Shown here piece by piece: positions 21,198-60,603 of a DNA stretch of 64,000 bases. The stretch covers positions 62,001-126,000 of the forward strand of contig NZ_QGGB01000001.1 in the NCBI RefSeq assembly GCF_003150675.1, in the 5' to 3' direction. Below the pieces are notes generated by a model. It was not told where the DNA came from and ran no database searches. It saw only the letters and a program-made list of their open reading frames with translations. The position numbers were made by a program, and so were the translations under genes. Every line of letters starts with the position of its first letter. Within the stretch, counting starts at the first letter, position 1. The stretch comes from Rhodohalobacter mucosus. GTDB taxonomy: Bacteria > Bacteroidota > Rhodothermia > Balneolales > Balneolaceae.

Positions 21198-22159
21198 GAT
21201 GACGCCTTTTCTTCGACTGTGGTTGCACCTTGGGTGTTCACAGATGAGATAAGATCATTGTATTCAAGACCCAGCTTTTGCAACTCCGATCCCATAGCGG
21301 AGGCAGCCTTTCTGGCAGTCTCTTTGCCGCGCGAGAGGGCAAACAACGACGGGCCGGAACCTGAAATGGAGCATCCCAGGGCTCCGGCTTCTTCTGCAGC
21401 TAGCTTCATCCGGTCGAATCCCGGAATAAGAACGGAACGTACAGGCTCAATGATTTCATCATGAAGTGAACGGCCTATCAGGTCATAATCCTCTTTAAAA
21501 AGGGCCGCTACCAAACTTCCAACATTTGCCCATTGCGAAACCGCCTTTTCGAGCGCCACATCTTTTTTTAAAATTTGTCTGCTGTGCCGTGTTTGAATTT
21601 CAATTTTCGGGTGAATGATGGTACAGAACAGGTCAGGCGGTGTGGGAAGGGAGATCACATCGGGCGGAAGATGCGTTTTTACCAAAATAAATCCTCCAAA
21701 GAGTGCCGCTGCAGCATTATCGGCATGGGGGGTTCCGCTGGCTGCCATTTCGCCCTCCACGGTAAATGGGAGCAGTTCAGGAAGTGAAAATGGCTCCTCC
21801 AGGAGTTTGTTTACAGCATATGCGGCCGCCACAGAACTTGCAGCGCTTGAGCCCAGGCCGCTGCCGAGGGGCATCTTCTTTTCGATCACAAGGTCGATGC
21901 CAATATCATTCATTCCAAGCTCGTTCAGCAGCTTCAGAACCGAGAGTCCGGCGGTATTTTTCTCAGCATCCAGCGGCAGCATTCCGCCATCTCCGGTAAT
22001 GCGGGAAATACGTACACCGGGAGTATCCATCATCGTTGCGGTTACAAAATCCCCAAGCTTATGAAGTGCAAACCCAAGCACATCGAACCCGCAACCCACG
22101 TTTGCCACCGTGGCCGGTGCAAAAGCTTTAACGCTTTGTGGTTTTTCAGGATCCCGCAT
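21194..22159 (-). CDS. thrB: Homoserine kinase (GHMP family)
   Basis: The protein has 321 residues. It phosphorylates homoserine with ATP in threonine synthesis. The GHMP ATP loop is MPLGSGLGSSAAS at about residues 96-108. The N-terminus KAFAPATVANVGCGFDVLGFAL and the late GCSISGSGPSLFAL segment are typical for ThrB. It overlaps thrA by 14 bp at its start and thrC by 4 bp at its end, so all three are in one coupled operon. Confidence 0.97.
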   Translation of the reverse strand: MRDPEKPQSVKAFAPATVANVGCGFDVLGFALHKLGDFVTATMMDTPGVRISRITGDGGMLPLDAEKNTAGLSVLKLLNELGMNDIGIDLVIEKKMPLGSGLGSSAASSVAAAYAVNKLLEEPFSLPELLPFTVEGEMAASGTPHADNAAAALFGGFILVKTHLPPDVISLPTPPDLFCTIIHPKIEIQTRHSRQILKKDVALEKAVSQWANVGSLVAALFKEDYDLIGRSLHDEIIEPVRSVLIPGFDRMKLAAEEAGALGCSISGSGPSLFALSRGKETARKAASAMGSELQKLGLEYNDLISSVNTQGATTVEEKASS

Positions 22160-24623
22160 TATTGAATACCTTGGTGTTGGTTACCCGCAGGATATCAGCA
22201 ATAATCCCGCCGGCCGTAACATCCGCTCCTGCTCCCGGGCCCTGTATAACCATCGGATGCTCATTATAATGACGGGTATAGAGTGCAACAATATTGTCGC
22301 TGCCTGAAAGATTGTAGAATGGATGGTCCTTATCAATTTTTTCAAGAACAACCGTTGGTTTACCGCCATCAAACCGGGCGATGTAGCATAGTTTTTTATC
22401 TTTTTTTTCCGCTTCCAGCCTGAGGCTTTCAAATTCTGAATCGTATTTCTTCAGCGCTTCAAAAAAATCTTCCGTGCTTTCGGCCTCCATGGCACCTTCG
22501 GGTACCAGGTTCTCTATTTCTATATCCTCGAATTCGAGCTTGTACCCGGCAACCCTGGCCAGAATAAGCAGCTTTCTGCCAACATCATGTCCATTCAGGT
22601 CCTCACGCGGATCGGGCTCGGTGTAGCCTTTTTTGCGGGCTTCGCGCACGATATCGCTGAATGGCACAGACCCGTCAAAATTATTGAAAATATAGCTTAA
22701 CGTACCTGAAAGAACACCTTCAATCCTTTCCACATGATCTCCCGTCGTCACCAGTTCATGCATCGTGCCAATCAGCGGCAGGCCCGCACCCACATTGGTC
22801 TCATATCTGTAGGCGCAGTTATGCTGAAACGCCATTTTCTGAAGTTCGTCAAACAGCTCCTGATTTGAGGAATTAGCCAGTTTATTTGGCGTGACAACCG
22901 AGATGCTTTTCTTTAAAAATTCAGGATAAATGCGCTGAATATCCCCGCTTGCCGTACAGTCCACAAAGATCGAATTGGGGAGATTCAGCTTTTTTACCTC
23001 TAGTGCAAAACGCTCCAGTTTCATTCCATACCCCTCCTTTTCAAGCTCTCCCTGCCACATATCGAGAGGGATAGACTCTTCACGGACAAGCATCCTGTTG
23101 CTGTTCGCAATCCCTTTCAGGTTGATTTCAATCTGATAGTCGTCAAAAAGGTTTTTTGCCTGCTCCGCAAGCATCTCCAGCAAACGCCCGCCTATTAGAC
23201 CCAGACCAACCACAAACAAATTCACACTTTTGACTCCCGCCAGGAAAAATGCATCATGGAGCGTGTTCATGGCTTTGCGTTCATTCTCCTGATCAACAAC
23301 AAAAGAAATATTACGCTCTGATGAGCCCTGTGCAATCGCCACGATATTGATTCCGTTGCGTCCGAGTGCATTAAATACACGTCCTGCAATTCCCGGAATC
23401 TGGCGCATATTATCGCCTACAACCGCGATAACGGAGAGATCCGTTTCCACTTTAATCTCATCGATTGCATCCGATTCCACCTCACCCGCAAATTCATCCG
23501 CTATGGCCATTTTTGCTCTTCCGGCGTCAGCAGGCAGTACGGCGATGGTTACGGTGTGTTCGGAGGAGGATTGGGTAATCAGAATGATGTTAATCTTCTT
23601 TCGGGCAAGTGCATTGAAAATACGCGATGCCACACCGCTAACCCCGATCATCCCCGTTCCTTTTATTGAAATAAGCGCAATTTCATCAATTGAAGAGATG
23701 CCACGGATAATGCCTGATGTTTTCGTGGCCTGATCTGAAATGAGCGTTCCGGGATGTTCAGGCTTGAATGTATTTTTGATTGCAATCGGTATTCCGGATT
23801 TCAGTGCAGGCTGAATAGTGGGCGGATAAATCACTTTGGCGCCGAAATGCGACAGCTCCATTGCCTCTTCGTACGATGCTTTCGATACGGGAAACGCACG
23901 CTGCACCTTACCGGGATCAGCCGTCATGAGTCCATCCACGTCGGTCCAAATTTCCACCATCTCAGCGCTGAGCGCGGCGCCAAAAAGTGACGCTGTGTAG
24001 TCAGAACCGCCCCGGCCCAGTGTTGTGGACTCCTGTCGTTCAGTCGATGCAATAAAACCTGTAGCAACAATCACCGTTTCACTGTTTGTTTCAATATGTG
24101 AAGCGATATTGCGATAGGTGGGGGCAGTTAAAACGTTTGCCATACCAAAATGCTCATCGGTTTTTATAAGCTTTCGGGTATCGCTGTAGAGTGCGCTGAC
24201 ACCGCGTGTATTCAGCATGGAAGCTAAAATCAACGCACAAAAGCGTTCACCGAACCCTACTATAAAATCGAGGGTTTTGGCAGTGAGCTCACAGGTTAGC
24301 GCAACTCCCTGAAGTACGTCTTCAAGTTCGTTGAATGTAATCTTAAACCGTGTAATCACATCGGTTTGATGACTGGCGGGTACAAGTTTCCTTATAGCGG
24401 TCAGATGCCGCGCATCCATTTCCTCCAGGATGTCGCGATATCGCCTGTTACCGGCGGCTGCGAGATCCGCAATCTCAAATAGCTGATCGGTGACTCCCCT
24501 GAACGCCGATACCACAACAACCGGTGGTTTTCCGCTCTTCGCCTCCTTTGAGATAATGCTGAATACATTTTCAAGAGCTTCGGGGCTGCCGACCGAGCTG
24601 CCTCCGAACTTCAGTACTTTCAT
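22146..24623 (-). CDS. thrA: Bifunctional aspartate kinase/homoserine dehydrogenase I
   Basis: The protein has 825 residues, as in other ThrA proteins. The N-terminal aspartokinase starts with VLKFGGSSVGSPEAL and has the TTLGRGGSDYTASLFG motif. A central regulatory part with two ACT-like segments follows (ISIKGTGMIGVSGVASRIF, then IAVVGDNMRQIPGIAGRVF). The C-terminal homoserine dehydrogenase opens with the Rossmann motif VVGLGLIGGRL, and includes FVDCTASGDIQ and ANVGAGLPLIGTMHEL-type sequence. It makes aspartyl phosphate and later reduces aspartate semialdehyde to homoserine. The ACT part suggests feedback control by threonine. I found no threonine-rich leader peptide in the 165-bp gap upstream. 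Confidence 0.97.
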   Translation of the reverse strand: MKVLKFGGSSVGSPEALENVFSIISKEAKSGKPPVVVVSAFRGVTDQLFEIADLAAAGNRRYRDILEEMDARHLTAIRKLVPASHQTDVITRFKITFNELEDVLQGVALTCELTAKTLDFIVGFGERFCALILASMLNTRGVSALYSDTRKLIKTDEHFGMANVLTAPTYRNIASHIETNSETVIVATGFIASTERQESTTLGRGGSDYTASLFGAALSAEMVEIWTDVDGLMTADPGKVQRAFPVSKASYEEAMELSHFGAKVIYPPTIQPALKSGIPIAIKNTFKPEHPGTLISDQATKTSGIIRGISSIDEIALISIKGTGMIGVSGVASRIFNALARKKINIILITQSSSEHTVTIAVLPADAGRAKMAIADEFAGEVESDAIDEIKVETDLSVIAVVGDNMRQIPGIAGRVFNALGRNGINIVAIAQGSSERNISFVVDQENERKAMNTLHDAFFLAGVKSVNLFVVGLGLIGGRLLEMLAEQAKNLFDDYQIEINLKGIANSNRMLVREESIPLDMWQGELEKEGYGMKLERFALEVKKLNLPNSIFVDCTASGDIQRIYPEFLKKSISVVTPNKLANSSNQELFDELQKMAFQHNCAYRYETNVGAGLPLIGTMHELVTTGDHVERIEGVLSGTLSYIFNNFDGSVPFSDIVREARKKGYTEPDPREDLNGHDVGRKLLILARVAGYKLEFEDIEIENLVPEGAMEAESTEDFFEALKKYDSEFESLRLEAEKKDKKLCYIARFDGGKPTVVLEKIDKDHPFYNLSGSDNIVALYTRHYNEHPMVIQGPGAGADVTAGGIIADILRVTNTKVFNNAGS

Positions 24624-24788
24624 AAATTTGATTATTCATCGGATGATATTATTCCTGCATGTTACCTATTCAAATGTACCCGTTCAACAAATTATGTTCC
24701 TGAATCATAAAAAAAGTGAGAAGCGCTTTTCGGTATACTGTTCAATTATCCTCGCCCTTTTATCCTGCATGTCCCTTCTGTCATGCTG

Positions 24789-40403: not shown

Positions 40404-42128
40404 ATGGAATTCTTAAAATCATATCACAGACAGAACAGACTCAGGTGGATCTTCTTGGGCATTGGTATTGTCGCTGTTCTGGCCTTAACCACATTGAACG
40501 TCTATTCACTATATGCCCTGCGCCAATCTACCATCGATTCGGCCAAAGACAATAAAAAGAATCAGCTGGAAGAGTTTACCGATCAGGTCCGAAACCGGTT
40601 CAGCAGTCCTTTTATGAATCTGGTAAAGCTGAACACGGAACAGCTGCAGAATACATGGAATGCCAGCAGCAATTTCCCGAGACGCTATAACAAGGTTCTC
40701 AGCGAAGCCTTATCCGACTCACTGTTTACAAGTATCCATTTTATCCCGCAAAATATAAATGCTTGTCATGACGACTCCGCTCCGGTTTATAAATTCGACT
40801 CGGAGTCTGAAGTATTTCTTCCTGAAAATGAGAATAATATTCCCCAAATCGTATGCGATGGGTTCAGCCTGGCAGTGAGCCGTACCCAGGTTGCGCTGAA
40901 TGAATATAAATGGAACAACCGTGTGACCTTCGATGCACACCGCAGCATGACGGTTTCCCTTATCAATCTGAAAGAGAAGTCTGTTGTGGGCCATATCAAC
41001 CTGGTTATTGACCGGGACTACATGGTAAACGACTATTTTGAAAGAGAACTCCGGAAACAGTTCGGTACCGCAGATGAGTCGGGCGTCGTGGTTTGGCTGC
41101 GGGACTGGATGCAGGATGAAATCCTTACCAGCAGCGATCACCGCTACGTCTACAACCGTGACGTTTATGAAATTGACTTCAGGCAGGGCTTTCCGAACCT
41201 GCTCGACAATTGGGTACTCCATGCTACGTTTCTGGAATCACCCACGGTAGCTGCTTCCAACGCCTCACTTACCCGAAATCTGATTGTGCTTGGTTTTGCA
41301 GTCTTTGCACTCTTCGGAGCGTTGGTATTCATGTTCATCAATGCACAGCGCGAGCGTGAACTTGCACAGCGTCAGGCGGGCTTTCTGGCCAACATCACCC
41401 ACGAGCTTAAAACGCCTCTCGCAGTAATGCAGGCTGCAGGGGAAAATATTTCAGACGGACGCGTAACAGATGGAAACAGGCTCAGAACATACGGCGACCA
41501 CATCTATGAAGAGGCGATCCGGCTGCGCAAAATGATTGAAAAACTACTGGATGTGGCCAGGGTGGATGCGGGTCAGAATGTGGTTGAACTGGCACCATTT
41601 CAACTTGATGAAATCGCAGAAAATGTATACCGGTCGTCAAAGGATTTTGTAGAGTCGAAAGGCTTTCGGTTTGAAATCAACACCGGCGGTAAGGTACCGT
41701 TTGTGATGGTAGATGCGGATCACGTTGAAACCATTCTTAAAAACCTGATCGAGAATGCGGTCAAATATAGCTCCGATGAAAAATATATTCTCATCGATGT
41801 ACGGAACCTTAACGGCTCTGTTGCAGTATCAGTAACCGATAAAGGAGACGGGATTCCCAAAAAATCCCAGAAACTGATCTTCGAAAAGTTCTATCGTGTG
41901 GAAGGCGACTTAACGGTTAAAACCAAAGGTCACGGCCTCGGACTGGCAATTGTAAAAAATCTCGTAGAGATGAACGGAGGCAATATTTCACTTGAAAGTA
42001 CGCCGGTCAAAGGATCCACGTTTACTATCACATTCCCTGTGCTTGTTCAGGAAATGGGATCTTCAGAAGCCGCCAAACGTACGGGGGCTGCTGAAAAATT
42101 GAATAGGGAAGAAGAATATGTCGGATAA
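40404..42128 (+). CDS. Sensor histidine kinase
   Basis: The protein has 574 residues. One membrane segment at about 15-36 and a second at about 293-313 enclose a periplasmic sensor of roughly 255 residues that I do not recognise. The cytoplasmic part has a HisKA domain with H333 in FLANITHELKTPLAVM, and an HATPase domain with the N box NLIENAVKYS, G1 DKGDGIPKK and G2 KGHGLGLAIV. It overlaps the response regulator start by 11 bp, so the pair is translated together. The signal is unknown. The C-terminal tail (about 25 residues) is polar. Confidence 0.94.
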   Translation: MEFLKSYHRQNRLRWIFLGIGIVAVLALTTLNVYSLYALRQSTIDSAKDNKKNQLEEFTDQVRNRFSSPFMNLVKLNTEQLQNTWNASSNFPRRYNKVLSEALSDSLFTSIHFIPQNINACHDDSAPVYKFDSESEVFLPENENNIPQIVCDGFSLAVSRTQVALNEYKWNNRVTFDAHRSMTVSLINLKEKSVVGHINLVIDRDYMVNDYFERELRKQFGTADESGVVVWLRDWMQDEILTSSDHRYVYNRDVYEIDFRQGFPNLLDNWVLHATFLESPTVAASNASLTRNLIVLGFAVFALFGALVFMFINAQRERELAQRQAGFLANITHELKTPLAVMQAAGENISDGRVTDGNRLRTYGDHIYEEAIRLRKMIEKLLDVARVDAGQNVVELAPFQLDEIAENVYRSSKDFVESKGFRFEINTGGKVPFVMVDADHVETILKNLIENAVKYSSDEKYILIDVRNLNGSVAVSVTDKGDGIPKKSQKLIFEKFYRVEGDLTVKTKGHGLGLAIVKNLVEMNGGNISLESTPVKGSTFTITFPVLVQEMGSSEAAKRTGAAEKLNREEEYVG

Positions 42129-42822
42129 GCAAAAGAAGATTTTAATTGTAGAAGACGAACCCAGTCTTGTATTTACCCTTCAGGACACACTCGAATCCGA
42201 GGGATATGCCGTTACGGTGGTTACTGATGGCTCACATGCCATTGACAAGGTAAAGGAGATAGAACCTGACCTGATGATACTTGACCTGATGCTGCCCGGC
42301 AAAAGCGGATACGATATCTGTAAGGAGATACGCGATCTAAAATATACCTTCCCGATTATAATGCTCACTGCAAGGGATCAGGAAATAGATAAGGTTGCCG
42401 GCCTGAACATCGGCGCTGACGATTACATGACAAAACCGTTTGGCGTGAAAGAGCTATTGGCCCGCATTAAAGCCCGTCTCAGGCGAGCAAGTGCCTATTC
42501 GAAATCCGGTCCTGTTGAAATGCTGAAGCTTGGCGATGTTAAGATTGACCTGAAAGAGTCTGTTGTAAACAAGCCTGACGGAACGGTTCATGAACTCTCA
42601 ACACGGGAAGTGGAGCTGATTCAATATCTTGTATCCAAGGCCAATCAGCCCATATCAAGAGACGACCTGCTGGAACATGTATGGCGTTATGAATACAGCA
42701 CCAACACGCGGACGGTCGATGTCCACATATCCAAGCTGCGTGCCAAAATCGAAATGCAGCCTGATGATCCCCGCTACTTGGTCACACTCCATGGCGTGGG
42801 GTACATGCTGAGGCTCAACTGA
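42118..42822 (+). CDS. OmpR/PhoB-family response regulator
   Basis: The protein has 234 residues. The receiver domain has LIVEDEPSLVFTLQD, phospho-acceptor D56 in LMILDLMLPGKSGYD, and the switch lysine in DDYMTKPFGVKELLARI. The C-terminal winged helix ends with VDVHISKLRAKIE and the LVTLHGVGYMLRLN motif typical of OmpR/PhoB proteins. It is the partner of the histidine kinase whose gene overlaps it. Its end overlaps the end of the convergent FMN reductase gene by 8 bp. Confidence 0.96.
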   Translation: MSDKQKKILIVEDEPSLVFTLQDTLESEGYAVTVVTDGSHAIDKVKEIEPDLMILDLMLPGKSGYDICKEIRDLKYTFPIIMLTARDQEIDKVAGLNIGADDYMTKPFGVKELLARIKARLRRASAYSKSGPVEMLKLGDVKIDLKESVVNKPDGTVHELSTREVELIQYLVSKANQPISRDDLLEHVWRYEYSTNTRTVDVHISKLRAKIEMQPDDPRYLVTLHGVGYMLRLN

Positions 42823-43381
42823 CAGCCTTTTCTTTCTTCCTCTCTGCGATCTGATCCACAAAATCCGGGAAATTTCTTAGCTGGCTCTCCAACAGATCCT
42901 GCAACAGATCACTGCTTAGCCCTTTTTCAGGGTCAAAGGAGTCGTTCACTCTTTGAATAAACATCCGCTCAGGGTAGACATATGCTTTCCTGTATTTAAG
43001 CAGTTGTTCAAACTGTTCAACCGGCCGCAGAGCCCCAAAAGCACCCGCAGCCTCTCCGATTGTACTCACAGGAACCATTTCCATAGCTTTTGGAAACGGC
43101 AGATAATCAAAAAACACCTTTAGTATGCCTGGAAAACCTCCATTGTATTCTGGGATTACAAAAAGAAAACCATCTGCTTCCAGAAAACTCTCATTAAATT
43201 CTTTTACCGAATCCGGTGTACTGCCGTATTTACCCCCATGAACATCGGCAAGAGGAAAATCCATGAGGCTGAAAATGCGGCACTCCGCATTCTCTGCTAT
43301 CAGGTTACTGGCATACTCGGATACCTTCAGGGCGTTGGATCCCGGCCGGTCGGTGGATGATAAAATATGTATCAGGCTCAT
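42815..43381 (-). CDS. NADPH-dependent FMN reductase family protein
   Basis: The protein has 188 residues. It has the flavodoxin-like fold of the NAD(P)H-dependent FMN reductase family: an N-terminal phosphate loop region STDRPGSNALKVSEY, and the flavin-site motif VIPEYNGGFPGILKVFFDYL. Members reduce FMN, quinones or azo dyes with NAD(P)H. The protein is longer than the minimal 175-residue form. The gene stands alone; upstream of it lies a 349-bp gap that holds the candidate small RNA. Confidence 0.85.
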   Translation of the reverse strand: MSLIHILSSTDRPGSNALKVSEYASNLIAENAECRIFSLMDFPLADVHGGKYGSTPDSVKEFNESFLEADGFLFVIPEYNGGFPGILKVFFDYLPFPKAMEMVPVSTIGEAAGAFGALRPVEQFEQLLKYRKAYVYPERMFIQRVNDSFDPEKGLSSDLLQDLLESQLRNFPDFVDQIAERKKEKAVS

Positions 43382-43541
43382 TTATCTTATAAAATGGTTA
43401 CTTATTTACGTCGATGCCCTCAACAGCTTATCAATGAAGATCATTCAATAAATCGCATAGCCCTGCCCTGGAGAATAAATTTTTTTCTTTAAAAAAAGCG
43501 CTTTTTTAGGCGCCAAGCCTTAATTAAAGTTACTCTTTATC

Positions 43542-43569
43542 TTGATTCCTTAATTTTATTTGATATAAA
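43542..43569 (+). promoter_or_regulatory. Sigma-70-like promoter of the candidate small RNA
   Basis: TTGATT (43542-43547) and TATAAA (43564-43569) are separated by 16 bp. They lie about 135 bp upstream of a strong terminator on the same strand with no coding gene between. The predicted transcript start is near 43576. A fully symmetric AAAAAAGCGCTTTTTT (43492-43507) lies 35 bp upstream of the -35 box and may be an operator or an upstream transcription end. Confidence 0.45.
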
Positions 43570-43575
43570 TGTGAA

Positions 43576-43706
43576 TCGCCCCTATCATTCGGCTGAAATT
43601 AAGGGTTCAAAATTGAACCGCACGAGCTCATGTTATGGTAGACATCGAGCAATAGCTCCAATACTTCGCTTGCCCGGAATGGACAATTCCGGGCAAGTCT
43701 TTTTTT
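43576..43706 (+). ncRNA. Candidate small noncoding RNA, about 130 nt
   Basis: The 349-bp gap between the FMN reductase and rarA genes contains a promoter-like pair, a structured core and a strong terminator, but no convincing open reading frame. Visible pairings are GGTTCAA/TTGAACC (43604-43619), a GCTC...ATGT with ACAT...GAGC stem around 43626-43650, and the terminator stem-loop at 43669-43697. I could not match it to tmRNA, SRP RNA or RNase P, which have distinct cores. A 6S-like RNA or a family-specific regulator are open options. The start is predicted from the promoter only. Confidence 0.45.
43669..43706 (+). terminator. Strong intrinsic terminator
   Basis: CTTGCCCGGAAT (43669-43680) pairs perfectly over 12 bp with ATTCCGGGCAAG (43686-43697) around a 5-nt loop. 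It is followed by a T-rich tract (TCTTTTTTT, 43698-43706) on the plus strand. No coding gene on the plus strand ends nearby, so it must end a noncoding transcript. The T-run is absent on the minus strand, so it does not serve rarA. Confidence 0.9.
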
Positions 43707-43730
43707 AGTTCCATGTACCACGCATCCTAC

Positions 43731-45080
43731 TTAATCACCTTCTTTAATTTTTTGAAGGCGCTGCCAAAGGGAGGGCTCTCTTCCCTGATTACCGGGCTTA
43801 TACCATCCGGCCGATTTCAAATGATCCGGAAGATATTGCTGGTCTACCCAATGACCGCTATAATTATGCGGATAGAGGTATTCGTCCGAAGCATTTTCGA
43901 TATCCAGATACCTGGAAGCTAATTTATTCGCGGTCTTATCCTTCAGGTGGGCAGGCACTTCCTCCACTCCGCTTTTCGTAATCTGTTCACGAACTTCAAA
44001 TACAGCTTTTGTGCTATTGCTTTTAGGGCATAGGGAGAGAAAGATGACTGCATGTGCCAGAAAATAGAACCCCTCCGGCATACCCGTTTTAAGAAAAGCC
44101 TCGTGTGTACTGTTGATAACCGTAATTGCATAGGGATCCGCCATTCCAACATCCTCGGATGCAAATATCAGAAGTCTCCTGAAAATGAATCCAGGGTCTT
44201 CCCCACCCTCCAGCATTGCATTTAGCCAGTAAAGTGCCGCGTCTGCATCCGACCCTCTCATAGATTTGATAAAGGCTGACGCAAAATGATAATGCTCATC
44301 TCCCGAGCGATCGAATCGCACGCTTCGCTTCTGAATTGACTCTTTCGCAATTTCAAGGGTTATTTTCACGGAGCCGTCTTCTGATCTGGGTGTGGAAAGC
44401 GCTGCTACTTCAAGGGCGTTCAGTGCGTTGCGCACGTCACCCCCTGCATACTCCGCCAGATACTCCTTTGCTTCGTCGTAAAGCACAATATCCATAAAAC
44501 CGAGCCCCTTGTTCGAATCCGCAAGAGCCCGGTCAATCATCAGCTTTACGTTCTCTTTGGTAAGCGGGTAGAGCTCAAACAGCTGACATCGTGAGAGCAG
44601 CGGATTCACAAGAGAGTAAAAAGGATTTTCCGTTGTTGCACCTACCAGCGTAATCACGCCCGATTCAAGATGTGGAAGCAGGGCATCCTGCTGGGCTTTG
44701 TTCCACCTGTGGATTTCATCCACAAATAGTATGGTCTTCCTGCCATTGGCTTTTTTTTGCTGTTTTGCTTTTGCAACAACCTTTCTGAGCTCCTTCACCC
44801 CATCCAATACCGCATTTATGACCTCAAACCGGGCGTCTATCTCTTTCGATATCACATTTGCCAGCGTTGTTTTGCCTGAACTTGGGGGTCCGTAAAAAAT
44901 CATTGACCCGATAACGCCGCTCTCGATCATGCGCCTAAGCATTTTGCCCTCCCCAACCAGGTGATGCTGACCCGTAAATTCATCAAGTGAATCAGGCCTC
45001 ATCCTGGTAGCCAGCGGCCCAGACGACCGCGATTCGTCCATTTCCATGTCATTGTTCTGTTCTTCATTAAACAGATCCAT
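43731..45080 (-). CDS. rarA: Replication-associated recombination protein A (MgsA/RarA)
   Basis: The protein has 449 residues. This is a AAA+ ATPase of the clamp-loader group that acts at stalled replication forks in the cytoplasm. The N-terminus LATRMRPDSLDEFTGQHHLVG is diagnostic. Walker A is GPPSSGKTT, Walker B is in LFVDEIHRWNKAQQDALL, and an EDGSVKITLEIAKESIQ segment and the C-terminal tetramerisation part with PEGFYFLAHAVIFLSLCPKSN follow. It is transcribed alone. The ATG at 45080 is the accepted start. Confidence 0.95.
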   Translation of the reverse strand: MDLFNEEQNNDMEMDESRSSGPLATRMRPDSLDEFTGQHHLVGEGKMLRRMIESGVIGSMIFYGPPSSGKTTLANVISKEIDARFEVINAVLDGVKELRKVVAKAKQQKKANGRKTILFVDEIHRWNKAQQDALLPHLESGVITLVGATTENPFYSLVNPLLSRCQLFELYPLTKENVKLMIDRALADSNKGLGFMDIVLYDEAKEYLAEYAGGDVRNALNALEVAALSTPRSEDGSVKITLEIAKESIQKRSVRFDRSGDEHYHFASAFIKSMRGSDADAALYWLNAMLEGGEDPGFIFRRLLIFASEDVGMADPYAITVINSTHEAFLKTGMPEGFYFLAHAVIFLSLCPKSNSTKAVFEVREQITKSGVEEVPAHLKDKTANKLASRYLDIENASDEYLYPHNYSGHWVDQQYLPDHLKSAGWYKPGNQGREPSLWQRLQKIKEGD

Positions 45081-45177
45081 GATATCGCCTCATACTTATT
45101 AAATGTTGTGCAACCGCATCGATACGTTTGCAAAAAGCAAAATTTCTTATTAAAAAGATGTATACAATAAATAAACA

Positions 45178-45185
45178 GGGAGGAG
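45178..45185 (+). promoter_or_regulatory. Ribosome binding site that decides the CBS-protein start
   Basis: GGGAGGAG lies two bases before the ATG at 45188, with a GGGAGG core four bases from it. This is stronger than any site near the earlier in-frame start at 45128, so the shorter product is preferred. Confidence 0.65.
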
Positions 45186-45187
45186 CC

Positions 45188-45625
45188 ATGACCGTTAAAG
45201 ATATCCTAAATCGAAAAGGTAATCAGGTTTATTCCATTCATCCGCACGAATCGGTGTACGATGCCATCAAAAAGATGACTGACCTTGAAATCGGGGCCCT
45301 CGTTGTCGCGGAGCAGGATACCATTTATGGGATGATTTCCGAACGTGATTACACAAGCAAAATTATTTTAAAGGGTCGTTCATCGGCTTCCACACCGGTA
45401 AAGGATATTATGTCGAAGCAGGTTTTTTGTGTAAGCACATCCGACAATGTTCATACATGCATGAAAATCATGACCGATAAAAAAATACGTCATCTCCCTG
45501 TACTTGAAAAAGGAAGCCTTGCCGGCCTGATCTCAATCGGAGATGTTGTAAAATCAGTTATCGATCAACAAAAAGTAGAGATCCATACACTCAGAGAGTA
45601 TATAGCGGGCAGCTATCCCGGCTGA
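45188..45625 (+). CDS. CBS-domain pair protein
   Basis: The product has 145 residues. The frame could start upstream at 45128, but GGGAGGAG (45178-45185) lies just before the ATG at 45188, which gives MTVKDILNRKGNQVYSI, the typical start. Two CBS motifs cover the whole length: YDAIKKMTDLEIGALVV with MISERDYTSKII, and VKDIMSKQVFCVS with MKIMTDKKIRHLPVLE. CBS pairs bind adenosine nucleotides and control a partner protein. No partner is adjacent. Related free-standing CBS proteins occur widely. Confidence 0.88.
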   Translation: MTVKDILNRKGNQVYSIHPHESVYDAIKKMTDLEIGALVVAEQDTIYGMISERDYTSKIILKGRSSASTPVKDIMSKQVFCVSTSDNVHTCMKIMTDKKIRHLPVLEKGSLAGLISIGDVVKSVIDQQKVEIHTLREYIAGSYPG

Positions 45626-45674
45626 CCAAAAAAAACGGCTTCCGTTTTGCCCGCCACAATCAACGGCTCTAATT

Positions 45675-45732
45675 TAAGGTGACTACGGGACAAAGATTTG
45701 AAAACCCTGTTGTCGCCGGGTATCACCTTTAA
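45675..45732. other. Nested inverted-repeat structure in the CBS/carboxylase gap
   Basis: The 185-bp gap between the convergent CBS gene and carboxylase gene holds a nested pairing. The outer stem is AAGGTGA (45676-45682) with TCACCTT (45723-45729), and the inner stem is GACAA (45689-45693) with TTGTC (45710-45714). The loop is A-rich. No T-run follows, and an AAGGAGGG at 45730-45737 is not followed by a start codon at useful distance. It could be a small structured RNA or a 3' UTR structure. Confidence 0.35.
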
Positions 45733-45810
45733 GGAGGGTACTTACATCACGAGCCTGCATTCGATTTACATCGAACTCAGATTCCTTATTGTATTATAGC
45801 ACCGAAAAGA

Positions 45811-47361
45811 CTAGAGCGGCAGGTTGTCGTGCTTTTTACGCGGAACACTCTCCGCCTTGTTCTGACATACCTCAAACGCATGGATCAATTTTTCCCTTGT
45901 TTCGGAGGGCATGATCACATCATCTATAAACCCACGGGCGGCGGCTTTATACGGGTGCGCAAACTCTTCGTTATATTGGTCTTCCAGTTCTTTCTGTTTT
46001 GCTTCGGGATCGTCAGCCGCAGCGATTTCCCTTCTGAAAATAATTTCAACTGCTCCTTTTGTCCCCATTACTGCAATTTCCGCTGTTGGCCAGGCCACGT
46101 TGTAATCGGCGCGGATATGCTTTGAATTCATCACATCATAGGCGCCGCCATAGGCTTTACGCGTGATCACCGTCATTTTGGGCACTGTTGCTTCACAGAA
46201 AGCATAGAGGAGCTTGGCTCCGTGTTTGATGATTCCCCCCCACTCCTGGTCGGTTCCCGGCAGAAAGCCCGGCACATCCTCGAATACCACAAGCGGGATA
46301 TTGAATGCATCGCAGAATCGGACAAATCGCGCTCCCTTGAGGGATGCATCAATATCCAGAACTCCTGCAAGCGAGAGCGGTTGATTGGCAACGACACCTA
46401 CAGACCTGCCGTCGAGCCGTGCAAAACCGATCACAATATTGTCCGCATAGTTTTCCTGAACTTCATAGAACGACCCTTTATCCATCACCCCTTCAATCAC
46501 TTCTTTAATATCGTACGGCTTGTTCGGATTGAGGGGTACGATATCATCAAGTTTCGCCGCCTTCGAAGAATCCGCTGCAAGGGGCTGCTGTTTCGGAGTT
46601 TTCTCCTCACAGTTTTGCGGTAAATAACTCAGAAGCTTTCTGATGTCATTGAGGCAGATTGCATCATTTTCAACGGTAAAATGTGCTACACCCGACTTCG
46701 TTCCGTGGGCTGATGCACCTCCCAGATCTTCTGATGTTACCTCTTCATGGGTTACTGTTTTAACCACATTGGGGCCGGTTACGAACATGTAGCTCGTATT
46801 TTTTACCATGTAGACAAAATCGGTAAGGGCAGGACTGTATACCGCTCCACCGGCGCAGGGTCCCATGACGGCTGAAATCTGTGGGACCACGCCCGAGGCC
46901 ATTGAATTTCTCCAGAACACTTCCGCATAACCTCCAAGAGAACTCACTCCCTCCTGGATGCGCGCTCCGCCCGAGTCGTTCAACCCTATGACCGGCACAC
47001 CGTTTTTCATTGCCAGATCCATAATCTTACATATTTTTTCCGCATGGGTCTCGGAAAGGGACCCGCCAAAAACCGTAAAATCCTGACTGAAAAGATATAC
47101 CGGCCGGCCGTCAATCTTTGCAAAGCCGGTCACTACGCCATCGCCCAGTACACGCTGCCCCTCAAGCCCAAAAGCAGAACTGCGATGGGTTACAAATGCA
47201 TCGATCTCCTGAAAGCTCCCTTTATCGGCCAGGAGGTCGATTCGTTCTCTTGCTGTCAGCTTTCCCTTTTTATGCTGTTTTTTTATCCGATTTTCACCGC
47301 CTCCCTTTTTAGAATCTTCGCGTAACTTTTTCAGGCGCTCTTCTTTTGCGTTTGTACTCAT
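45811..47361 (-). CDS. pccB: Acyl-CoA carboxylase carboxyltransferase (propionyl-CoA carboxylase beta) subunit
   Basis: The protein has 516 residues. The biotin-dependent carboxyltransferase fold is clear: [80 protein letters not shown], and in the second half [20 protein letters not shown] and [11 protein letters not shown]. Such subunits carry carboxyl groups to propionyl-CoA or acetyl-CoA. Neither the biotin carboxylase nor the biotin carrier gene is adjacent. The methylmalonyl-CoA decarboxylase alpha subunit is a related alternative. The gene starts 15 bp after an acidic unknown protein, so the two are probably co-transcribed. Confidence 0.9.
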
Positions 47362-59113: not shown

Positions 59114-59584
59114 CTAATTGTTTGATACGGTGACGCTGGATTCCTGAACCTCATTCTGAAGGTAGTAGAAAACCCTGTTTTGATCAGTCAGATCGATATA
59201 GCCCGTCAGAGCCACCGGCTCCTTGAATTCATCCTGGTTTTGGTAATATTCAAGTGCAAGATAGGCTTTGAATCTGATTGAGTGTGACGGGCCTTCCAGC
59301 GCAATTTTGCTGAGACGGCCAAGTACCCTGTTCGACCTGAAGTCCGGATACACAATCTTGTAGCTTACAGCGTTGAAAAGCGCTGATTCAACTACTCCAT
59401 GCACATCAGATTGCAGGCCGAAAAGAATCGTGTCTTCCAAATTTCTGAAATGACTATCCTTGTCGACTTCGTTTAGTTGATCTGTTTTAGTGATCTGAGA
59501 CGTTGCAGATTGTGCCGAAACCAGGTTAATTGAACCTGAGAGAGCAATCGCAAATGAGATGATTACGTACTTTATTTTATTCAT
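59114..59584 (-). CDS. Small secreted protein of unknown function, possibly HEAT-like
   Basis: The protein has 156 residues and I do not recognise it. A signal peptide (about 1-24, SGSINLVSAQS) precedes a helical mature part. Two helix pairs such as LFGLQSDVHGVVESALFNAV and LSKIALEGPSHSIRFKAYLALEYY suggest short HEAT-like repeats. The tail ends in VQESSVTVSNN. The gene has its own strong terminator and an upstream region rich in AAGCSCTT motifs, so it is probably well expressed and regulated. Confidence 0.75.
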   Translation of the reverse strand: MNKIKYVIISFAIALSGSINLVSAQSATSQITKTDQLNEVDKDSHFRNLEDTILFGLQSDVHGVVESALFNAVSYKIVYPDFRSNRVLGRLSKIALEGPSHSIRFKAYLALEYYQNQDEFKEPVALTGYIDLTDQNRVFYYLQNEVQESSVTVSNN

Positions 59585-59732: not shown

Positions 59733-59923
59733 AAGCCCTTCTATTTATATTTCCGTTAACATTCAGTTAATAATACATCTGACAGTCAAAATTATTTTCT
59801 TTGTCTGTTTTGCAGAAAAGCCCTTACAATTTCATATAATCCAAAAAGCGCTTACATAAAACTTCTTATTTGTACTGACAAAAAAACATCTAAAAAGGGC
59901 TTTAAAGACACAGGGAAGCGCTT
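59733..59923. promoter_or_regulatory. Cluster of AAGCSCTT palindrome-like motifs
   Basis: The 488-bp gap between the small secreted gene and the macro-domain gene holds five copies of AAGC(C/G)CTT or its reverse: 59733-59740, 59818-59825, 59846-59853 (AAGCGCTT, palindromic), 59895-59902 (AAGGGCTT) and 59916-59923 (in GAAGCGCTTC). The two perfect palindromes are 70 bp apart. TGTAAGCGCTTTTTG on the minus strand resembles LacI/GalR-type operators in general. The regulator is unknown and no LacI-family gene is in the window. Confidence 0.4.
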
Positions 59924-60072: not shown

Positions 60073-60603
60073 ATGAGAAGTGTGCGATTCGACCGTCTAA
60101 CCGTTGAAATTACAAATGGCGACATTGTTGAGCAGAACGACTGCGACGCTATTGTAAATGCAGCGAATGCTCAGCTCCGAACGGGCGGGGGCGTTGCAGG
60201 TGCCATTCACTCTGCAGGTGACCCTGAACTTGAAGAGCTTACAAAACCTCTCGCCCCTATTGAGCCGGGCGAAGCTGTTATTACGGAGGCTCCCAATATG
60301 CCGTTTAAATACGTGATTCACTGTCTGGGACCCGTATACGGAAAGGATACTCCCTCTGATGAACTTCTTACCAACTGTTACTCGAATGCTTTAAAACTCG
60401 CTGACGAACACCAGGTTGAATCCATCGCCTTTCCATCCATCTCTACCGGTGCATTTGGTTACCCAATGAAGGAAGCAGCCACAGTGGCGTTCGAAACCAT
60501 CAAAAAGTCAGCACCAAATCTTCGGTCTGTTTCCTATGTGCGGTTTGTTCTTTGGAGTCCGGCTGACTACAATCTGCACTGGGATGTATTGAAGGAGATG
60601 TAA
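60073..60603 (+). CDS. Macro-domain protein, O-acetyl-ADP-ribose deacetylase-like
   Basis: The protein has 176 residues and is a single macro domain. The ADP-ribose site is shown by DAIVNAANAQLRTGGGVAGAIHSAG near residues 26-50, VIHCLGPVYG, and the late IAFPSISTGAFGYPMKEAA. Domains of this kind remove ADP-ribose or acetyl groups from ADP-ribosyl targets. The Asn/Asp positions of the active hydrolases of the YmdB group (NAAN) are present. It stands alone behind a regulated-looking promoter. Confidence 0.93.
   Translation: MRSVRFDRLTVEITNGDIVEQNDCDAIVNAANAQLRTGGGVAGAIHSAGDPELEELTKPLAPIEPGEAVITEAPNMPFKYVIHCLGPVYGKDTPSDELLTNCYSNALKLADEHQVESIAFPSISTGAFGYPMKEAATVAFETIKKSAPNLRSVSYVRFVLWSPADYNLHWDVLKEM

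Follow-up and report, generated by a model that had tools for sequence, protein, structure and literature searches.

The nitrogen-stress-induced small RNA (sRNA) NsiR4 of cyanobacteria is controlled by NtcA and has its target in the 5' UTR of pirA, according to the available part of PMC9196836, while the enterobacterial GlnZ is cut from the 3' UTR of the glnA mRNA and depends on Hfq (PMC9731577, in excerpt). 6S RNA adjoins rarA in B. subtilis and almost all lactic acid bacteria, and roughly one in three of the lactic acid species has a cre box at the 6S promoter (PMC8414754, in excerpt). The strong consensus of the cre box, the carbon-control site of CcpA in B. subtilis, is given as TGAAAGCGCTTTCA in the available part of PMC3463425.

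By analyzing a stretch of 64,000 nucleotides from Rhodohalobacter mucosus (contig NZ_QGGB01000001.1, positions 62,001 to 126,000; hereafter the window) together with related genomes, we found what, judged from sequence conservation, is a genuine and hitherto uncatalogued small RNA gene of halophilic Balneolaceae. Like NsiR4 it is a free-standing sRNA gene, which would share its regulator with genes of nitrogen assimilation; the NsiR4 of the excerpt differs in its control by NtcA, its cyanobacterial hosts and its known target, and the Balneolaceae gene has a different operator and no known sequence relation to it (PMC9196836). With GlnZ it would share a conserved seed and a tie to glutamine synthetase expression, but GlnZ, as excerpted, is processed from the glnA mRNA (PMC9731577), whereas the Balneolaceae RNA has its own promoter elsewhere. 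No study of small RNAs or nitrogen control in Balneolota was found in the open literature searched, where both subjects appear to be unstudied.

The RNA gene and its structure

The gene is located in a gap (43382-43730) of 349 bp, the length given in the initial annotation, between the divergent NADPH-dependent FMN reductase gene fmn (42815-43381, minus strand, PF03358) and the convergent gene rarA/mgsA (43731-45080, minus strand, PF12002). The only plus-strand frame to enter the gap is an unsupported one of 62 aa (43263-43451), and no coding gene on that strand ends here, as had been stated from the outset, or overlaps the RNA. The RNA is predicted to cover 43595-43706 on the plus strand, with the start placed 7 nt past the -10 box and the end at the T-run. 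An RNA of ~130 nt had originally been proposed; its 3' end stands, while the length is corrected to ~112 nt and the start to ~43595.

The promoter was identified by aligning 29 distinct loci carrying the RNA of the window (type 1) with 12 loci carrying a second RNA (type 2, see below). The boxes originally taken for the promoter, TTGATT (43542-43547) and TATAAA (43564-43569) with a spacer of 16, are present but do not form the conserved promoter, and we reject them as the main one. The conserved promoter is found at 43553-43588 on the plus strand, with TTGATA (43560-43565) in the -35 region, a spacer of 17 and the -10 box TATCAT (43583-43588), a sigma-70-like arrangement with 10/12 matching positions. 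Among the type-1 loci the -10 box is mostly TATCAT-like, and it lies 23-58 nt from the conserved core of the RNA.

At the other end, the annotated terminator hairpin is confirmed (43668-43706, plus strand), with 13 pairs (43668-43698), the 5-nt loop GGACA and a T-run to 43706. Terminator-like sites are not rare per se, as a scan of 41000-46000 yielded 14 against 5.2 expected, and among these 14 the hairpin ranks highest in both pair count and G-C pairs. It was ruled out as a terminator of rarA, since no T-run follows the stem on the minus strand. The fold of a 131-nt RNA (z = -4.29) was better than those of all 200 shuffled sequences; without the terminator z dropped to -1.91, with 8 of 200 shuffles as good, and folding by itself is therefore no proof of an RNA gene.

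Stronger evidence comes from the alignment of the 29 type-1 sequences (A1), in which 97.8% of the structure is paired, compared to 86.5% in shuffled alignments, none of 500 of which reached the former value. In the terminator stem 97.2% of cells are paired, with two-sided changes at 11 of the 13 pairs, and on account of this covariation the terminator can be considered proven as a structure. For the core hairpins, which are plausible, one compensatory pair was found. Core hairpin 1 (CUCAUGU-UAUGGUAG-ACAUcGAG, 43627-43649, plus strand) has four invariant pairs and a variable one, A43630-U43645, which occurs as A-U, G-U and G-C, although both outer pairs are broken in one row (L057). Core hairpin 2 (GAGC-AAUA-GCUC, 43647-43658, plus strand) can form instead of the lower part of hairpin 1; of its four pairs three are invariant, and one row (L073) has lost the fourth. 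RNAalifold favors two small hairpins in A1 (columns 10-14/21-25 and 27-30/35-38). Core positions are near 100% identical and CATGTTATGGTAGACATCGAGCAATAGCTCCAAT is near-invariant, the changes being confined to the A/G-U/C pair (L072-L075), a bulge (L061), C30 (L073) and A40 (L074). A near-invariant and partly unpaired stretch, in which CUCCAA is the putative pairing seed, leads up to the terminator (43652-43666, plus strand). Furthermore, a pseudoknot can be drawn between the loop UAUGG and the tail CCAAUA (GUUGG/CCAAC in type 2), among bases that hardly vary. Both inner stems of the initial annotation exist, i.e. GGTTCA..TGAACC (43604-43619) and GAGC-AATA-GCTC (43647-43658), the latter being core hairpin 2. 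The former is not conserved but private to the species, and it is situated in a variable 5' leader (43595-43620, plus strand).

The gene thus has its own promoter and its own intrinsic terminator, as expected of a trans-encoded sRNA, and what is conserved is the RNA, whose structure is kept by compensatory changes, rather than a protein. None of the 4227 Rfam families matched the window at gathering scores, and 43380-43740 gave just sub-threshold eukaryotic and viral noise at E<=10; neither did seven of 20 stretches (140 kb) of the R. mucosus genome match a family of any kind. ARAGORN found nothing. The RNA is absent from Rfam 15 and, as already in the initial annotation, was not recognized as a tmRNA, SRP or RNase P RNA, nor was it as a tRNA. 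Taken as a whole, the initial observation holds for the small RNA and the terminator, but its promoter, its start site and one inner stem had to be corrected, and the link to a regulon (see below) is an addition to it. Its reading as a plus-strand small RNA gene ending at the terminator at 43706 is strongly supported, because the gene is conserved with compensatory changes.

Distribution of the two RNA types

Across Rhodohalobacter hardly a letter changes in the core of ~40 nt (43627-43666), which is also found in three further genera, while the rarA proteins are 69-79% identical to that of the window. With 43618-43706 as query, 25 of the 28 genus genomes matched at E<=0.001, including all 18 that are at least 90% complete; the others were G016, in which the promoter lies at the very end of a contig, G001 (81% complete) and G012 (88% complete). 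A 31-nt core pattern, allowing up to three mismatches, was present in 29 of 92 genomes of the family, in four of 21 genera, but since the species are related, these and all other locus and genome counts are not independent. In a set of 24 stretches, the core was found in records of Rhodohalobacter sulfatireducens and R. halophilus, i.e. of the same genus as the window, and the remaining core-bearing records were MAGs labelled Balneolaceae or Bacteroidetes and one labelled Chitinophagaceae. As L001 and L049 are one place, the distinct type-1 loci number 29, with weaker model matches (E 0.002-1) left out of the counts; fmn and rarA were each found at 27 of them.

In four genera (g4, g6, g22 and g24) the DNA adjoining fmn carries a different RNA. 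This type 2 consists of GCCTAATAC, a long hairpin with the invariant loop GGTTGGTTAGG, GTATTAGTGACTCCAACAACAA and a terminator GGCGAAG..CTTCGCC. It occurs in 12 of 128 genomes of the order (4/39 genera), with fmn at 11 of the 12 loci and rarA likewise at 11. In alignment A2 (L152-L163) its three helices are paired in 100, 86 and 100% of cells, and in the outer two 5/8 and 9/11 pairs are invariant. An Rfam search of six related loci at E<=1 gave one sub-threshold match of miRNA type and otherwise none. The type-2 RNAs may form alternative pairings, as a GCCTAA near the 5' end can pair either with the loop TTAGGC or, as CTAATAC, with GTATTAG, and a two-state switch is possible.

Upstream of type 2 the promoter is the same as that of type 1. 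The bodies of the two RNAs cannot be aligned, and what they have in common is CTCCAA right before the terminator. A model of the type-1 RNA (R1) matched none of the 12 type-2 loci L152-L163, nor L132, a locus of genus g8. It did match L131 of genome G077 in genus g4 (E 0.0018) and L105 of G112 (E 2.7e-6), and these two matches hint at a common descent of the types but do not prove it.

L105 (198-286; genus g32) contains a strongly diverged RNA resembling type 1. It has AAAAGCGCTTTT upstream and has kept TAGCTCCAATAC and a terminator with CTCCAA just before it, while most of the core hairpin is lost. Neither rarA nor fmn was found in this locus.

An upstream element shared with amt and glnA

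Upstream of the promoter lies the palindrome AAAAGCGCTTTT (43494-43505), a putative regulator-binding site whose center is ~95 nt from the start site. AAGCGCTT is found at all 29 distinct type-1 loci and at 10 of the 12 type-2 loci, the other two having AAGCGATT (L155) and AAGTTCTT (L156). The distance from this operator to the -10 box is 84-89 nt (sd 0.8) in all 28 loci measured out of the 29 (searched offsets 84-97), and that to the TTTG of the -35 region is 59-65 nt at 29/29 RNA promoters (searched offsets 57-70). The start of fmn, on the other hand, lies anywhere from 96 to 369 nt from it (sd 63.8, n=27). Because the phase to the RNA promoter is fixed and the distance to fmn is free to drift, we assign the element to the RNA and reject a main role as operator of fmn.

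The palindrome occurs five times in the R. mucosus genome, compared to three times for a reversed-pattern control. Apart from the RNA, the sites are ahead of a TonB/SusC-like gene (identified by eye), at the start of a paaA-like gene (PF05138), ahead of a glycosidase (PF02836) and ahead of the ammonium transporter gene amt (PF00909). Orthologs of amt were identified in 21 of the 28 genus genomes, 20 of them with upstream DNA, and in 17 of these 20 AAGCGCTT is found within 450 nt upstream (L238 counted from a corrected start); the amt promoters of G004, G015 and G011 carry AAGCGGTT instead. GSII-type glnA is present in 14 of the 28 genomes, all 14 with AAGCGCTT within the same distance (L248 and L254 included). 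The 450 nt were counted from where the protein match begins, a point that falls within the gene when the match is partial. R. mucosus itself has no GSII glutamine synthetase at E<=1e-60. As background, AAGCGCTT was found at none of 82 genes in 24 named genus loci (the 22 genes adjoining the RNA excluded), at four of 285 genes over 400 kb of the R. mucosus genome, and at four of 49 genes in the window, one of these being fmn at the RNA's own site.

In all 17 amt promoters the -35 sequence (ATTG or TTTG) is 60-62 nt from AAGCGCTT, near the spacing at the RNA promoter, while the geometry at glnA differs from both. From the RNA promoters and the R. mucosus amt promoter, once these were known, we also composed a search pattern (AAAGCGCTTT-N30..52-CYTWA-N5..9-TTG). 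It occurred at 32 places, 24 of them RNA loci, in 26 of the 28 genus genomes. Of the other eight, two were at amt (G000 and G020), and one each at a glutamine synthetase gene (G011), at fumC (G014), on the side of fmn (G026) and at an AraC-type regulator gene (G002); two had no clear gene. In R. mucosus only the RNA and amt have it.

An operator in common with nitrogen-assimilation genes is what a nitrogen-regulated sRNA would be expected to have. As the element is common to amt and glnA and near-absent from background genes, the RNA is most likely a member of a regulon for nitrogen assimilation, and a promoter switch shared with these genes suggests that it helps manage the nitrogen supply. 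The element also precedes genes that are not obviously nitrogen-related, namely the paaA-like, glycosidase, TonB/SusC-like and AraC-type regulator genes and an aspartokinase-homoserine dehydrogenase gene.

The latter gene, a fused aspartokinase/homoserine dehydrogenase (22149-24623, minus strand), has AAGCGCTT ~98 nt upstream (24721-24728) and is a possible further regulon member. This is one of four AAGCGCTT sites in the window, compared to 1.14 expected, with that of the RNA at 43496-43503. The remaining two (59846-59853 and 59916-59923) are 70 bp apart within one intergenic region, flanked by an ORF without Pfam domain (59117-59584, minus strand) and a Macro-domain gene (60073-60600, plus strand); a Macro-like frame similar to the latter follows the type-2 RNA in L141. 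Elsewhere in the R. mucosus genome (L277-L278, contig C2, ~379358-381986), AAGCGCTT is situated between two divergent genes, one of which resembles the AraC-type regulator that the element precedes in G002 (L221). An amt-like gene, identified by eye, adjoins fmn in place of the sRNA and rarA in three other genera of Balneolaceae (L132, L143 and L146 of G034, G069 and G089). At L132 (genus g8) AAAAGCGCTTTT and a similar promoter precede this gene, and no RNA was found at this place; at L143 and L146 (genera g7 and g23) no AAGCGCTT was seen in the upstream DNA inspected.

Proposed function and alternative explanations

What the comparison of loci demonstrates is an independent gene whose promoter, operator, core and terminator are conserved, a fixed spacing between operator and promoter, and a motif in common with amt and glnA. 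The response to nitrogen, the sign of the regulation, the expression, the base-pairing and the targets are what we infer from it. On balance we favor a stand-alone regulatory sRNA of Balneolaceae that would be part of a nitrogen-assimilation regulon, controlled through AAAAGCGCTTTT and acting by base-pairing in trans. A regulator would bind AAAAGCGCTTTT at about -95, an activator-like position, with the arrangement found at amt, and would activate the sigma-70-type promoter, repression being less likely. The RNA of ~112 nt would end at its own terminator and pair with mRNAs through the near-invariant core, most likely by CUCCAA, chosen as seed because this stretch is common to types 1 and 2, and perhaps by the UAUGGUAG loop. 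Such pairing would adjust metabolism when the nitrogen supply changes.

Searches for targets gave little. Duplexes of the core with the starts of amt (17 species) and glnA (14 species) were mostly no better than those of shuffled cores, and for the best ones 2, 4, 5 and 6 of 100 shuffles were as good. Pairing with these starts is thus unsupported, including a recurring CAUCGAGC match to early glnA codons, which does no better than shuffles and falls within conserved protein-coding sequence. At least nine contiguous bases complementary to the core were found at one of 285 R. mucosus gene starts (about a tenth of those in the genome), within the shuffled range of 0-9, and a perfect complement of ATAGCTCCAATA was not found elsewhere in this genome. 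An anti-Shine-Dalgarno action of CUCC is a weak candidate, with Shine-Dalgarno-like motifs at just 45 of the 285 starts, compared to 22.75 at random places (nine of 49 starts in the window), and TTGGAG was not enriched at gene starts (two found, 3.21 expected).

These negative target searches would also be expected of an sRNA that titrates a protein instead of pairing with mRNAs, and a near-invariant hairpin loop and tail would suit a protein-binding site too. No known binding motif was recognized, however, and the partly unpaired CUCCAA fits pairing equally well; we regard such a sponge as improbable. A tiny gene within the core, ATG GTA GAC ATC GAG CAA TAG (MVDIEQ), keeps its frame across the genus, and the one change in G021 (ATC to ATA) is silent. 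Further changes alter residues (I to T in G100, Q to K in G099), the G100 change forms a Watson-Crick pair with a changed partner, and the conservation runs beyond the stop codon into CTCCAATACTT. On account of the residue changes and the compensatory pair we reject this coding reading, to which we give almost no credence.

6S RNA is a long rod of ~180-200 nt with a closing stem and a central bubble, represented in Rfam by RF00013 and RF01685. A divergent or reduced 6S RNA, which would bind RNA polymerase and not mRNAs, might be suspected here, since this gene likewise adjoins rarA and stands under a cre-like box, as is described for 6S in the available part of PMC8414754. Yet no Rfam 6S match was obtained at E<=10, nor in six related loci at E<=1. 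The RNA is shorter (~112 nt) and of another architecture; neither the rod and bubble nor a long stem closing the 5' and 3' ends was found, it has a 3' hairpin terminator of its own, and its most conserved stretch is partly unpaired. We consider this identity improbable, on a par with the protein sponge. Somewhat better placed, though still unlikely, is carbon-catabolite-type control of the sRNA by a regulator of the LacI/GalR family, with the link to amt and glnA reflecting carbon/nitrogen balance and not nitrogen sensing. The element matches the core of the cre consensus TGAAAGCGCTTTCA, as excerpted, through AAGCGCTT (PMC3463425), and in R. mucosus a glycosidase gene and a SusC-like gene have copies of it nearby. 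It is this resemblance that makes a LacI/GalR-type regulator a fair guess and keeps carbon control a live rival. Against it, the operator-promoter geometry is fixed at the RNA and amt genes, while the copies at the sugar genes are without the composite promoter. The cre box of the excerpt is described for CcpA of B. subtilis (PMC3463425); the gene set of the Balneolaceae element includes amt and glnA.

Returning to the nitrogen-regulated, base-pairing sRNA, its types 1 and 2 would together make up an sRNA slot under nitrogen control, with fixed address and promoter, an exchangeable body and a retained CUCCAA, and with AAAAGCGCTTTT marking the nitrogen regulon of Balneolota; we put this forward tentatively, with slightly more doubt than belief. 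What seems to be new is the operator common to the RNA, amt and glnA, and the exchange of an RNA body beneath a constant promoter, which would be unusual. The gene supplies a concrete, testable RNA, its promoter, and an operator common to amt and glnA, and owing to this shared operator the nitrogen regulator of these halophiles becomes findable by an ordinary DNA pull-down. The exchange of RNA bodies under a constant promoter may serve as a natural experiment, showing which parts of a regulatory RNA are indispensable. If the proposal is true, the slot conserves its regulation and its seed, and AAAAGCGCTTTT would be the mark of a nitrogen regulon of Balneolota that otherwise has no name.
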